A stretch of 64,000 nt of DNA from Carbonactinospora thermoautotrophica (GTDB taxonomy: Bacteria > Actinomycetota > Actinomycetes > Streptomycetales > Carbonactinosporaceae), in the NCBI RefSeq assembly GCF_001543895.1, contig NZ_JYIJ01000019.1:744001-808000 (forward strand), written 5' to 3'. The position numbers and the translations under genes are program-made. This document shows, in pieces, positions 1 to 52,430 of the stretch; the first letter of the stretch is position 1; each line of letters begins with the position of its first letter. Below the pieces are notes generated by a model. The model did no database searches. It had not been told where the DNA came from and saw only the letters and a program-made list of their open reading frames with translations.

Positions 1-547
1 CGGTGAACCCGACGACCGCGACGAGAAGCGGGGTGCGCGTGTCCTGCAGGCCGCGCAGCACCCCGGTCGCGGCGAGCACGACGAGCATGCCGGGCACGCC
101 AAGGAGGCTGATGCGCAAGTACTGCTCGGCGTACGGGACCGCGCTGGGCGCCGGACCGAACAGTGCGACGATCCGCGGGGTGAGCGCCGCGCCGACGGCC
201 AGGATGGCGAACCCGAGGACCGTGGCCAGCCAGATGCCGTCCAGGCCCTGGCGGATCGCGGCGGCCACGTTGCCGGCGCCGAGCTGGCGCGCCACGCCGG
301 CCGTGGTGCCGTACGCCAGGAAGACGCACACGTACGCGAGGGTGCCGAGCGCCGTGGCGGCCACGCCAAGGCCGGCGAGTTGGGGGGTGCCCAGGTGGCC
401 GACGATCGCGGAGTCGACGAGGAGGAACAGGGGTTCCGCGACGAGCGCTCCGAACGCGGGCAGGGCGAGCCGCCAGATCTCCCGGTCGTGCGGATGACGC
501 GCGGCGGGGAGGAACCGGCGGAGGCTGGGGCTCGGAACGGTCTGCAC
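1..547 (-). CDS. MATE family efflux transporter (partial, C-terminus off window)
   Basis: About 182 codons of an open minus-strand frame with no stop before the window edge. The start is probably the GTG at 547. The protein begins with a short cytoplasmic stretch and then EIWRLALPAFGALVAEPLF, followed by VDSAIVGHLGTPQLAGLGVA. This is the first-helix pattern of MATE (DinF-like) cation/drug antiporters. Further hydrophobic segments follow, with a typical loop near LRGLQDTRTP. A MATE exporter lies beside dnaB in Streptomyces too, which supports the call. Substrate unknown. It is divergent from dnaB, so the DnaA-box cluster between them sits in both promoter regions. Confidence 0.85.
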   Translation of the reverse strand, partial: MQTVPSPSLRRFLPAARHPHDREIWRLALPAFGALVAEPLFLLVDSAIVGHLGTPQLAGLGVAATALGTLAYVCVFLAYGTTAGVARQLGAGNVAAAIRQGLDGIWLATVLGFAILAVGAALTPRIVALFGPAPSAVPYAEQYLRISLLGVPGMLVVLAATGVLRGLQDTRTPLLVAVVGFT

Positions 548-682
548 GGGCTCCCACTGTAGGGGCGCCCAAGTAATGACCGCATGCCGTTACGGTGATT
601 ACTGAAGGTGGCGCTGCGTGACCGTTCACATCGGCTGCGTAGCGAGGTCACCCACAAGTGTGGGAAGATGCGGAACTTTCCT

Positions 683-849
683 CCGTCCACAGGGCGTGGA
701 CAACGTTCCCCCAGCTCAACGCCGTCCTGGAGGAATCCTCCCCTGGATATTCACAGCGCTGTCCACAGGCTGTGCACAGTCCCTGTGGACAGCGAGGCCG
801 GTTGTCCACAAGTCTTCCACAGCCCTTGTGCACGACCGGGTTGTCCATC
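683..849. promoter_or_regulatory. DnaA-box cluster upstream of dnaB
   Basis: The 410-bp gap between the MATE gene and dnaB holds no gene but has about eight DnaA-box-like 9-mers in 167 bp, on both strands. They are CCGTCCACA 683-691, CGTGGACAA 695-703, CTGTCCACA 759-767, TGTGCACAG 771-779, TGTGGACAG 784-792, a perfect TTGTCCACA 802-810, TTGTGCACG 826-834 and TTGTCCATC 841-849. The actinobacterial consensus is TTGTCCACA. The density is close to that of the dnaA-dnaN oriC. It may control dnaB or titrate DnaA; which one is inference. Confidence 0.75.
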
Positions 850-971
850 CGATCCGCCCGGCCGTAACGTCACGATGCGCGAATGTGGGCGCCATCCCGT
901 ACCAAGGTGCCGTAACCCGAGCGAAGGCGTCGCCGTCGATCGGACCACGGCGATCCGAGGAGGGGATCCAG

Positions 972-3833
972 GTGAGTGTTGCCGAGTTCCCGGGGCCCGC
1001 GAGCCCTGCGGAGTTCGAGCGCACCCCGCCGCAGGACATCGCCGCCGAACAGTGCGTGCTCGGCGGCATGCTGCTCAGCAAGGACGCGATCGCGGACGTC
1101 ATCGACACCCTCCGCGGCAACGACTTCTACCGGCCGGCGCACGAGACCATCTTCAACGTCATCCTCGACCTGTACAGCCGGGGTGAGCCCGCCGACGCGG
1201 TCACCGTCGCCGCCGAGCTCACCAAGCGCGGCGAACTCGGCCGGATCGGCGGGGCGGCGTACCTGCACACGCTCATCTCGTCCGTGCCGACCGCAGCCAA
1301 CGCCGGGTACTACGCCAAGATCGTCCGCGACCGCGCGATCCTCCGCCGGCTGGTCGAGGCCGGCACCAAGATCGTCCAGATGGGCTACTCGGCCACCGGG
1401 GACGTCGAGGACGTCGTCAACCAGGCCCAGGCCGAGCTGTACTCGGCGACTGAACGCCGGGAGAGCGAGGACTACCTCCCGCTCGCGGAGATCATGGAAG
1501 GCGCCCTCGACGAGATCGAGGCCATCGGTTCCCGCAGCGGCGAGATGATCGGGGTTCCCACCGGCTTCGCCGACCTGGACGCCCTCACGAACGGCCTGCA
1601 CCCCGGCCAGATGATCATCGTCGCGGCGCGGCCGGCCATTGGCAAGGCACTGGCCCTGGACACCCCGCTCCCGACACCGACGGGGTGGACGACCATGGGC
1701 GAGGTCCAGGTCGGCGACTACCTCATCGGGGCGGACGGCAAGCCCACCCGCGTAGTTGCCGCCTCTGAAGTCATGCACGGTCGGCCCTGTTATGAGGTCG
1801 AGTTCGACGACGGGACGGTCATCGTGGCCGACGCGCAGCACCAGTGGCAGACCACGACCAGGGCCAGCCGCCGCCAGGCGTCCGAGAACAAGAGAAGCTT
1901 CTACTGGTCCACGGAGGCGATCGAGCGCGTCCGCGTTGCCCACGCCGCTTCACTCGCGGAGCCGGATCGCCTCATCACGCACCAGGAGGCGGTACACGCC
2001 GTTGGTGACGAGTTCCGGAACGTGCTCCGCACCGTGGAGAAGGAGATCGGCGCAGCGGGCCGTGTCCCTCGCGCCGTCACCACTTCCGGGGGGCGATACC
2101 ACGTCCGAAAGACGCCGGTTTACTCGCGCCGTCGGCTGCTTGGGGCCCTCCTCGCGCGCGCGAGCAGGCCCAAGAACGCCGCGACAACCGCGGTCCACCG
2201 GTCTGTGGTGACAACTGAGGAGATCGCGGCCACGCTGCGGTGCAAGTCGGCGGACCGGCGGCCAAATCACGCCGTTGCCGTCGCGGGTGCGTTCGACCTC
2301 CCGGATCAGGAGCTTCCGTTGCCGCCTTACACGCTTGGGGCATGGCTGGGAGACGGCGACGCGACGTCCGCCCGTATCACGACGGCCGATCCGGAGATCG
2401 TGGCGGCCATCGAGGCGGAAGGTCTGCGCGTCAAGAAGCGGGGGGATCTCCAGTACACGATCCAACTCCCGGAGCGGCCCCCTGTTGCGGAGCAGCCATG
2501 TGCTGTGTGCGGGAAAATGTTCCGCCCAAAAAACTCCCAGGTACGCACTTGTGGCAGATCGTGCGGCGGAAAGGCTCGACATGTCTCTGCTCCGGTGCCG
2601 CCACCCACGTGTCCTGACTGCGGTGGTCCGTCGTGCGGCATGATCCAGTGTCAGACGTGCCGGAACCGGCATGGAACGGTCCAGGCGATCCTGCGCAGCT
2701 TGGGTGTCCTGGGAAACAAGCACATCCCCGCGCAGTACCTGCGCGCGTCGGAAGCCCAGCGCCGCGCATTGCTCGCCGGGTTGCTCGACACGGACGGCTA
2801 CGTCAGTTCCTCGGGTGCGGTCCAGTTCGCGGTGACCAACGAGAGGCTGGCCAGGGACGCTCATGAACTGATCCTCAGCCTGGGATACCGGGCGACCATG
2901 ACCACCAAGAAGGTCCGCGGTCGAAGTGCGGCGAGCTCGACCTGCTACATGGTCAACTTCACGCCTGCCGACAAGGTCTTCCGGCTGCCCCGCAAGCTCG
3001 CGCGGCAGAAAACGAGGGCACACCCGACCACCCGGGTCCGGTACATCGTCGACGTGCGGCCGGTGCCCTCGGTTCCGGTGCGGTGCGTCCAGGTGGACAA
3101 CGCCGATCGGCTGTATCTGGCTAGCAAGGCGTGCATCCCAACCCACAATTCAACGCTCGGGTTGGACTTCGCCCGCGCCGCGTCGATCAGGCACGGGTTG
3201 ACATCGGTGATCTTCTCGCTCGAGATGAGCCGCAACGAGATCACCATGCGTCTGCTCTCGGCCGAGGCTCGGGTGCCGCTGCACCACATGCGGTCCGGCA
3301 CCATGACCGACGACGACTGGAACCGACTCGCGCGCCGGATGAGCGAAGTCGCCAACGCGCCGCTGTTCATCGACGACTCGCCCAACATGTCGATGATGGA
3401 GATCCGGGCCAAGTGCCGGCGGCTCAAGCAGCGCCACGACCTGCGCCTGGTGATCGTCGACTACTTGCAACTCATGCAGTCCGGCCGGCGCGCCGAGAGC
3501 CGCCAGCAGGAGGTCTCGGAGATATCCCGGGCACTCAAGCTGCTGGCCAAGGAGCTGGAGGTCCCCGTGGTCGCGATCTCCCAGCTCAACCGCGGCCCCG
3601 AGCAGCGGACCGACAAGAAGCCCATGATCTCGGACCTCAGGGAGAGCGGTTCCCTCGAACAGGACGCCGACGTCGTCATCCTCCTGCACCGCGAGGACGC
3701 GTACGAGAAGGAGTCCCCGCGGGCCGGCGAGGCGGACCTGATCGTGGCCAAGCACCGGAACGGGCCCACGGCCACCATCACCGTGGCGTTCCAGGGCCAC
3801 TACAGCCGGTTCGTGGACATGGCCCAGACCTGA
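972..3833 (+). CDS. dnaB: Replicative DNA helicase DnaB, intein-containing precursor
   Basis: The 953-residue precursor would splice to a 452-residue hexameric helicase. Start is the GTG at 972, eight bases after a strong AGGAGG (958-963); the open frame continues upstream but without a comparable site. The N-terminal DnaB domain covers about residues 15-115 (QDIAAEQCVLGGMLLS). The RecA-like domain has Walker A ARPAIGK-(intein)-STLGLDF, Walker B LVIVDYLQLM and the later motif SGSLEQDADVVILLHRED. The intein splits the P-loop directly before the Ser of GKS, so an unspliced protein could not bind ATP. DnaB unwinds DNA at forks after loading at oriC by DnaA. Gene and flanking MATE gene match the Streptomyces order. 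Confidence 0.97.
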   Translation: MSVAEFPGPASPAEFERTPPQDIAAEQCVLGGMLLSKDAIADVIDTLRGNDFYRPAHETIFNVILDLYSRGEPADAVTVAAELTKRGELGRIGGAAYLHTLISSVPTAANAGYYAKIVRDRAILRRLVEAGTKIVQMGYSATGDVEDVVNQAQAELYSATERRESEDYLPLAEIMEGALDEIEAIGSRSGEMIGVPTGFADLDALTNGLHPGQMIIVAARPAIGKALALDTPLPTPTGWTTMGEVQVGDYLIGADGKPTRVVAASEVMHGRPCYEVEFDDGTVIVADAQHQWQTTTRASRRQASENKRSFYWSTEAIERVRVAHAASLAEPDRLITHQEAVHAVGDEFRNVLRTVEKEIGAAGRVPRAVTTSGGRYHVRKTPVYSRRRLLGALLARASRPKNAATTAVHRSVVTTEEIAATLRCKSADRRPNHAVAVAGAFDLPDQELPLPPYTLGAWLGDGDATSARITTADPEIVAAIEAEGLRVKKRGDLQYTIQLPERPPVAEQPCAVCGKMFRPKNSQVRTCGRSCGGKARHVSAPVPPPTCPDCGGPSCGMIQCQTCRNRHGTVQAILRSLGVLGNKHIPAQYLRASEAQRRALLAGLLDTDGYVSSSGAVQFAVTNERLARDAHELILSLGYRATMTTKKVRGRSAASSTCYMVNFTPADKVFRLPRKLARQKTRAHPTTRVRYIVDVRPVPSVPVRCVQVDNADRLYLASKACIPTHNSTLGLDFARAASIRHGLTSVIFSLEMSRNEITMRLLSAEARVPLHHMRSGTMTDDDWNRLARRMSEVANAPLFIDDSPNMSMMEIRAKCRRLKQRHDLRLVIVDYLQLMQSGRRAESRQQEVSEISRALKLLAKELEVPVVAISQLNRGPEQRTDKKPMISDLRESGSLEQDADVVILLHREDAYEKESPRAGEADLIVAKHRNGPTATITVAFQGHYSRFVDMAQT
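1647..3149 (+). mobile_element. DnaB intein with LAGLIDADG homing endonuclease
   Basis: 501 residues (226-726 of the precursor) in frame within the P-loop. The N-terminus is Ala (ALALDTPLPTP) instead of Cys or Ser. Block B reads DAQHQW (His290, Trp292). Block F has Cys705 (VRCVQVDNADRLYL). Block G is CIPTHN followed by Ser, with Thr724, His725 and Asn726. Trp at B:12, Cys at F:4 and Thr at G:5 is the WCT signature of class 3 inteins. Two endonuclease motifs are present, LGAWLGDGD (455-463) and LAGLLDTDG (601-609). Between them is a Cys-rich stretch with CAVC at 510-513 and several more Cys pairs to about 566. The DNA looks less GC-rich than the exteins. Confidence 0.92.
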
Positions 3834-50200: not shown

Positions 50201-50469
50201 TGTGGATAACTTCCGTTCCGGCGACCGAAACAGACGCTGGAACGACCGTGTCACAGGTCTCACCACCTGCCGTGGCGAGATATGCACAGGCTGTGGATAG
50301 TGAATTGCTGCCCCTGTAGCCGAGGGTTATCGTGACCCGCACACGCCGTCTGTCCCGTGCCTGACGCGTCGGGGTGAGTTGTCGGCGGGGGGCTAGCACC
50401 ACCGGGAGTCACGCCCGAGACTGGTGTACTCGGAAGAAGTACACAGCCTGTGGACAAGTATGTGGACAG
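50201..50469. promoter_or_regulatory. DnaA boxes upstream of dnaA
   Basis: TGTGGATAA 50201-50209, TGTGGATAG 50292-50300, TGTGGACAA 50449-50457 and TGTGGACAG 50461-50469 are all on the minus strand in the 699-bp rpmH-dnaA gap. The last two lie 50-70 bp before the dnaA start and probably mediate autorepression. The rest (49818-50200) shows no gene or clear signal; it must contain the rpmH promoter. Confidence 0.7.
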
Positions 50470-50516: not shown

Positions 50517-51983
50517 GTGGCTGACGAAACTCGTGATCTCGCCGCTGTCTGGGCGCGATCCCTCGAGCAGCTCGCCGAGGGCTCGGTCGCGCCCCAGCAT
50601 CGGGCGTTCATCCAGCTCACGCGTCCGCTCGCGCTGGTCGGGGACACCGCTCTCCTCGCCGCGCCCAACGACTTCGCCAAGGACATCCTCGAGACACGGC
50701 TCCGCCCGCTGATCACCGACGCGTTGTCTCGCGAACTCGGCCGTGACATCCGCATCGCCGTCACCGTCGAGCCTGAGCCGCCGCGCGAACCGGAGCGGGG
50801 CGAGCCACTCACCCCGCCCGCCGACACCGCCCTTGTGAGCCAGGACGTCACCCGGCCGGGCACCGGTCCCCAGCCGATCGTCCCGCCGTACTCCGGCGAC
50901 GCGACCGGCGCGGGCGGTACGGAGACCCCAGACGACGACGAGGGGGCTCGGCTCAACCCGAAGTACATCTTCGACACCTTCGTCATCGGATCGAGCAACC
51001 GTTTCGCACACGCGGCCGCGGTCGCCGTGGCCGAAGCACCGGCGAAGGCGTACAACCCGCTGTTCATCTACGGAGAGTCCGGGCTCGGCAAGACCCACCT
51101 GCTGCACGCCATCGGCCACTACGCCCGCAGCCTGTACCAGGGCGCGCGGGTGCGGTACGTGAGCTCTGAGGAGTTCACCAACGAGTTCATCAACTCGATC
51201 CGCGACGGCAAGGCCGACGGATTCCGGCGCCGCTACCGGGATGTGGACATCCTGCTGGTCGACGACATCCAGTTCCTGGAGAACAAGGAACAGACCCAGG
51301 AGGAGTTCTTTCACACCTTCAACACCCTTCACAACGCCAGCAAGCAGATCGTCATCTCCTCCGACCGGCCGCCGAAGCAGCTCGTCACCCTTGAGGACCG
51401 GTTGCGTAACCGGTTCGAGTGGGGCCTGATCACCGACGTCCAGCCCCCGGAGCTGGAGACCCGGATCGCGATCCTCCGCAAGAAGGCCGCGCAGGAGGGC
51501 CTGAACGCCCCGCCGGAGGTCCTGGAGTACATCGCCAGCAAGATCTCCCGGAACATCCGGGAACTGGAGGGCGCCCTCATCCGGGTCACCGCGTTCGCCA
51601 GCCTCAACCGGCAGTCGGTGGACCTCCAGCTGGCGGAGATCGTGCTGAAGGATCTGATCCCCGAGAGCGAGGGGGGATCCGAGATCACGCCGTCGCTGAT
51701 CATCGCGCAGACCGCCGCGTACTTCGGGCTCTCGATGGAAGACCTGTGCGGCACGTCGCGGAGCCGAGTGCTGGTGACCGCTCGACAGATCGCGATGTAC
51801 CTGTGCCGCGAGCTCACCGACATGTCGCTGCCGAAGATCGGACAGCAGTTCGGCGGCCGGGACCACACCACGGTCATGCACGCGGATCGCAAGATCCGCT
51901 CGCTCATGGCCGAGCGGCGGTCGATCTACAACCAGGTCACCGAGCTGACCAACCGGATCAAGTCGCAGGCACGCCAGGCGTGA
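50517..51983 (+). CDS. dnaA: Chromosomal replication initiator DnaA
   Basis: 488 residues, GTG start. Domain I about 1-85 ([20 protein letters not shown]), short acidic/Pro-rich domain II about 85-150, and domain III AAA+ with [21 protein letters not shown] (Walker A near 185-192), [21 protein letters not shown] (Walker B near 245) and sensor [10 protein letters not shown]. Domain IV has the DNA signature [16 protein letters not shown] (about 447-462). Opens oriC and loads DnaB. Streptomyces DnaA exceeds 600 residues because of domain II; this one does not. Confidence 0.99.
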
Positions 51984-51998
51984 GCGACCACGCGTTAC

Positions 51999-52430
51999 TC
52001 ATCCACAGCCCTCGGGCTGAAGAACCGGTTCTCCACAGCTTCGCCCACAGCCCCCTGACCTGGGACGTCGAGCTGGTTTCCACAGTCCGGCGGCCGGTTC
52101 CCACAGCCTGTCCACACGCTTGTCCACAACCTGGGCATGAATACTCACAGCGACAGGCGAAGCTGTGCACACGCCTGTGGATAACCCTGTGGATGCGAGG
52201 ATGGGCGTGTGGACAACCTGTGGGTGATGCTGGGGAGAACCTGTGGGCAGTCTGTGGACGCCCGTGGATAACCTCTCCTTGTCCACAGCCATCCACAGCT
52301 TCGTGGATCCGCGTCCCCAGGGGCAGTGGACAAAGAAAACGGTGGCTACCTGCGGAAACGCCAGTTATCCACGGTATCCACACCCCCTATTACCACCTCT
52401 ACAAAGATCTATCTAAGAAGAACAGTCCAA
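51999..52430. other. oriC: Chromosomal origin oriC (dnaA-dnaN intergenic)
   Basis: Nearly 20 DnaA-box-like 9-mers in 384 bp, on both strands. The perfect ones are TTGTCCACA 52120-52128 and 52279-52287, TGTGGATAA 52176-52184 and TGTGGACAA 52208-52216. Near-perfect examples include TTCTCCACA 52029-52037, CTGTCCACA 52108-52116, CGTGGATAA 52263-52271, AGTGGACAA 52325-52333, TTATCCACG 52365-52373 and GTATCCACA 52374-52382. An AT-rich run follows at 52385-52430, next to dnaN, the best candidate for the unwinding element. Confidence 0.95.

Follow-up and report, generated by a model that had tools for sequence, protein, structure and literature searches.

The control of DnaA and the loading of DnaB are poorly understood in actinomycetes. 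Extra-oriC clusters of DnaA boxes located near oriC (H24, H69, and D78) are reportedly found in Streptomyces coelicolor, a relative of the organism examined here. In mycobacteria, where the known helicase loaders and DnaA regulators are missing (PMC5720831), the dnaB upstream region is one of five strong DnaA sites. It is bound by M. tuberculosis DnaA in vitro (IDAP-seq) and in M. smegmatis in vivo (ChIP-seq), and the DnaA I282T mutant, besides binding more weakly upstream of dnaB, uniquely under-expresses dnaB, a correlation drawn from one mutant (PMC7738170). In Caulobacter, the DnaA regulon includes dnaB and dnaQ (reviewed in PMC8203912).

DnaA-box cluster upstream of dnaB

The window, i.e., the entire 64,000-nucleotide stretch of Carbonactinospora thermoautotrophica DNA analyzed here, includes both dnaB and an intact dnaA-dnaN oriC.

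2-547, minus strand: divergent gene upstream of dnaB, cut off by the window edge
972-3833, plus strand: dnaB replicative helicase (PF00772/PF03796), GTG start at 972, intein-interrupted
50201-50469, minus strand: four DnaA boxes before dnaA (box scan)
52029-52333, no strand: oriC DnaA-box cluster, between dnaA (50517-51983) and dnaN
52390-52429, no strand: AT-rich stretch beside oriC (GC scan)

The divergent gene, which like the earlier note we take to encode a MATE-type transporter, is kept at the same place in 122 of 207 relatives. The intein of dnaB (about 1647-3146) is of the LAGLIDADG homing endonuclease type and is inserted directly after the Walker-A lysine.

The DnaA-box cluster directly upstream of dnaB (683-849) is real and functional-looking. 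The earlier note had described it as oriC-like, with about eight boxes, one of them perfect, 51 kb from oriC. Four boxes in this segment match TTGTCCACA with at most one mismatch, namely those at 695(-), 759(+), 784(-), and 802(+), of which only 802(+) is a perfect match, as had been stated; the others (683; 770/771, a palindrome, CTGTGCACAG; 813; 826; and 841) are weaker, so that the count of about eight holds if degenerate boxes are included, only four being strong. The position of the oriC cluster, at 52.03 to 52.33 kb, agrees with the distance given. Box counts in shuffled windows, which the earlier note had proposed as a check, were exceeded by the observed cluster in every case: order-1 shuffles of the 64-kb window gave at most two one-mismatch boxes per 167 bp (150 shuffles) against the four seen, and at most five two-mismatch boxes against 12 (palindromes counted twice). 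In box density the cluster comes second in the window, after oriC, with no other comparable cluster, and it is one of few places in the genome with three YTRTCCACA sites inside 170 bp, this motif having 81 sites in 5.13 Mb. Its features, including those discussed below, are as follows.

675-718, plus strand: composite core (T-tract, box pair 683/695, spacer, and degenerate GCAGGTCAG, here CCAGCTCAA)
683-691, plus strand: DnaA box CCGTCCACA, weak match; core box, start point for offsets
695-703, minus strand: inverted DnaA box TTGTCCACG, after a 3-nt gap from the 683-691 box
759-767, plus strand: DnaA box CTGTCCACA, offset 76 from the core box (76-77 recur in relatives)
770-779, no strand: palindromic box CTGTGCACAG at offset 87, which the second locus also shows
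784-792, minus strand: DnaA box CTGTCCACA, inverted pair with 770, 14 bp apart
802-810, plus strand: perfect DnaA box TTGTCCACA, offset 119
813-821, plus strand: weak box TCTTCCACA, offset 130, within a range (130-132) where boxes peak at both loci
826-834, plus strand: weak box TTGTGCACG, offset 143
841-849, plus strand: weak box TTGTCCATC, which begins with a candidate -35 (841-846, TTGTCC), so judged by its fixed offset
865-870, plus strand: candidate -10 TAACGT, 18 nt after the -35, with an offset of exactly 182 nt

Elsewhere in the same genome, the tightest run of perfect boxes lies near a purD-like gene (C19:654265-654327; four co-directional boxes with 16-19 bp spacing), and an ORF resembling a MaoC dehydratase has three same-strand boxes at its 5' end (C17:715817-715923).

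Conservation of the array with dnaB

Upstream regions of dnaB were collected from 80 named contigs plus sampled whole genomes. Of 209 Actinomycetia regions, a set that includes the window itself, 204 had at least one YYVTCCACA site in the interval -450 to -50 of dnaB, with 545 sites in total, counts that overstate independence because the sampled genomes are related. Column-permuted versions of the motif gave a mean of 6 sites in the same regions and a maximum of 123, the permutation behind the maximum being itself box-like. Redundancy filters among loci were crude, and by kinship labels the closest sampled relatives of this genome share only the order. The sites peak from -400 to -100 of dnaB, with almost none farther upstream or within the gene. 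In other classes of the phylum, boxes were present upstream of dnaB in only 11 of 46 regions.

The mean number of boxes was 2.84 where the upstream neighbor was the divergent MATE gene (122 loci), 2.29 where it was rplI (51 loci), and 2.35 for other neighbors (34 loci). Since the array is present whichever gene adjoins it upstream, it belongs to dnaB. The earlier note had made its reading depend on the boxes being conserved in relatives, and 204 of the 209 regions have them. The array is ancient and conserved across Actinomycetia.

Composite core and candidate promoter at a fixed offset

Profile iteration and k-mer counts delineated, at the dnaB-distal end of the arrays, a composite core made up of a T-tract, a box, a weaker inverted half 12 bp on, and then GCAGGTCAG. 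The core match in the window had an nhmmer E value of 7e-7, and a model built from sequence only (R1), run on the whole genome of the organism, returned it with an E value of 8.8e-8, which is flattered because the window sequence belonged to the model seed; E values from these models are rough, and the iterative profile favors its own finds. Exact GCAGGTCAG was present in 59 of the 209 dnaB upstream regions, compared with a mean of 2 and a maximum of 25 for its permutations. GCAGGTCAG is not a DnaA box, and its spacing from the inverted boxes is fixed (e.g., in L125 and L278); a few loci (L103, L193, and L227) have it on the opposite strand only.

Boxes in the dnaB arrays are oriented along the direction of dnaB in 432 cases versus 126 against it, and have preferred spacings. 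Relative to the core box, they recur at offsets 64-65, 76-77, 109, 119-121, and 130-132, and on the other strand at 144-145; the offsets in the window are 76, 87, 101(-), 119, 130, 143, and 158. TANNNT hexamers are most frequent at offset 182, where 13 of 82 non-redundant dnaB loci have one (mean per offset, 0.35), and a second peak lies ~10 bases before it; over offsets 174-190, TANNNT was found in only 61 of 138 dnaB loci. In the window, the candidate -35 TTGTCC is a poor match, and a generic sigma-70 consensus scan called no promoter at the candidate site. In a streptomycete alignment, the counterpart of the candidate promoter, TTGGCT-17-TACCGT, lies directly after the last conserved box. 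Because none of these downstream features belonged to the core profile, their alignment constitutes independent support. An Rfam search at the dnaB array returned no element.

Second locus and associated structured RNA

A search for the core pattern in 148 genomes also gave matches far from dnaB, many of which were confirmed by the sequence-only model. In nearly all of the 38 second loci fetched, one neighbor is a metallopeptidase gene resembling ygjP (PF01863, SprT-like), and the opposite flank has DUF5679 or echA. Their boxes recur at offsets 64, 87, 119-120, and 131-132, and the box-offset profiles of the dnaB and second loci correlate with an r of 0.64, the maximum under 169 circular shifts being 0.56. 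A -10-like hexamer is found at offset 183 in 7 of 22 second loci, usually after TTGAC, the promoter taking the form TTGAC-17/18-TANNNT.

Downstream, the second loci carry a long hairpin RNA of about 85 nt with an almost invariant loop, GCAAGGGGAAGGC. In an alignment of 24 sequences, 13 of 20 pairs changed on both sides, and 0 of 500 shuffles reached the observed covariation. No credible Rfam match was obtained for this RNA in seven loci; an Rfam miRNA match, below the gathering score, was discarded as spurious. With a covariance model, the RNA was found in 54 of 148 genomes, and at least two DnaA boxes lie upstream of it in 26 of 30 loci. The genome studied here has a copy at C16:363723-363806 (E value 4.7e-6, covariance model) with the promoter present and without boxes. 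No DnaA boxes were found in the upstream region of its ygjP, nor did the sequence-only model find a second full core anywhere in this genome. Two co-directional boxes and one inverted box are present between DUF5679 and a ThiF-like gene (C16:365080-365120), ~1.4 kb after the RNA.

Proposed DnaA control of dnaB and alternative explanations

Overall, we consider it likely that through this cluster DnaA controls the dnaB promoter. The initiator would occupy both the inverted pair of the core (683/695) and the mostly co-directional box series running down to the -35. The candidate promoter, TTGTCC-18-TAACGT (841-870), would be used from its fixed place just downstream, leaving a predicted leader of roughly 95 nt between the start point and the dnaB GTG at 972. 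This would put most boxes ~45 to 190 bp ahead of the start point, an arrangement typical of an activator, and the last weak boxes could repress under DnaA excess. The level of DnaA or its ATP form, the latter implying a putative nucleotide dependence, would set the helicase supply. At normal DnaA levels, the effect on dnaB is probably activation rather than repression, as the geometry suggests. Transcription control is favored because two different transcripts share one array-promoter geometry. DnaA control of dnaB is also the best explanation because mycobacterial DnaA binds at this place and a mutant under-expresses dnaB (PMC7738170).

An alternative is that the array is a DnaA-regulating site, DARS-like or datA-like, at which DnaA bound to inverted boxes would exchange or hydrolyze its nucleotide, dnaB being a mere neighbor. 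The cores of E. coli DARS1 and DARS2 have box I(+) and box II(-) 14 bp apart, and such opposing boxes drive ADP release (PMC8682772). The window has a pair with exactly this arrangement, 770(+)/784(-), which is also, palindrome self-overlap aside, the commonest inverted spacing in dnaB arrays (24 of 144 non-redundant loci); the core supplies a second inverted pair and, like DARS, recurs at a second, unlinked locus. The third DARS box, 12 bp after box II on the same strand, is absent in the window (no box at 796), and membership of the DARS type fails because box III is out of register. Moreover, the promoter stands at the same fixed offset at both loci, a feature superfluous to DARS, and this, with the RNA at the second locus, weakens the DARS-like explanation; actinobacterial counterparts of the IHF/Fis sites were not identified. 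We regard it as unlikely.

We also think it improbable that the cluster is a titration site, whose high-affinity boxes near oriC would soak up DnaA once duplicated, as cluster D78 of S. coelicolor reportedly does. The cluster is 51 kb from oriC and among the densest in the genome, and in sampled genomes that have both genes on one contig, the distance between dnaB and dnaA is roughly 20-150 kb. Precisely because dnaB lies near dnaA in those genomes, distance from oriC is uninformative about titration; many of the boxes are weak, and titration needs no fixed offsets, promoter, or attachment to dnaB. A second or relic replication origin, suggested by the highest box density of the window outside oriC, is very improbable and was rejected: the array is not an origin because it lacks an AT-rich unwinding element beside the boxes (lowest 40-bp GC, 55% versus 37.5% at oriC), and the dnaA-dnaN oriC is intact. 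That a matching array precedes a structured RNA likewise argues for a switch controlling genes rather than a second origin. The origin half of the earlier note's interpretation falls with the missing AT-rich element, whereas its link between DnaA and helicase supply gains from the conservation tied to dnaB, the fixed promoter-like site, and the mycobacterial binding. That TCCACA-like words accumulated by chance or through base composition in intergenic DNA, which is less GC-rich than the remainder, has next to no probability; this explanation was ruled out by the shuffles and permuted motifs and is also contradicted by the position peak and the conservation in 204/209 regions.

Beyond DnaA control of dnaB, we give even chances to the wider proposal that actinomycetes use one standard promoter cassette under DnaA control, consisting of an inverted-box core that contains GCAGGTCAG, phased boxes, and a promoter at 182 nt, at two places: before dnaB and before the undescribed structured RNA that neighbors ygjP/DUF5679/echA. 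If true, there would be a small DnaA-run replication regulon including a regulatory RNA, with a second factor reading GCAGGTCAG. A class-wide, fixed-geometry DnaA array before the helicase gene would offer a testable route for the initiator to set helicase supply, and the matching array before a conserved RNA would represent a second, unstudied output of the DnaA regulon.

Comparison with known systems

The array resembles E. coli DARS1/DARS2 in its opposing boxes 14 bp apart and in the presence of one core at two chromosomal loci; it differs in lacking a box III in register and in having additional co-directional boxes and a promoter at a fixed offset. A DnaA-controlled RNA of the kind seen at the second locus was not found in the literature, nor were descriptions found of the class-wide cassette or of the RNA itself; the link of DnaA to dnaB is already known in mycobacteria. 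The mycobacterial site (Rv0057 region) occupies the same place relative to dnaB as the array here, and the four boxes at 50201-50469 are a probable match to the mycobacterial rpmH-dnaA binding site; array geometry and spread are not described for the dnaB site in the available part of that source (PMC7738170). Because minus-strand boxes precede dnaA, three of the five DnaA sites of mycobacteria (oriC, the dnaA promoter, and dnaB) probably have counterparts in the window. Loci of sampled family f4, which look mycobacterial, have a weak composite core or none (most R1 matches with E values of 0.05-0.3, or none), unlike the array here. Both the clustering of DnaA boxes directly upstream of dnaB and the conservation with dnaB independently of the neighboring gene are nonetheless as in a mycobacterial-type array. 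Caulobacter, although of a different phylum, likewise combines DnaA boxes upstream of dnaB with dependence of dnaB on DnaA supply (PMC8203912), as we propose for the array described here.
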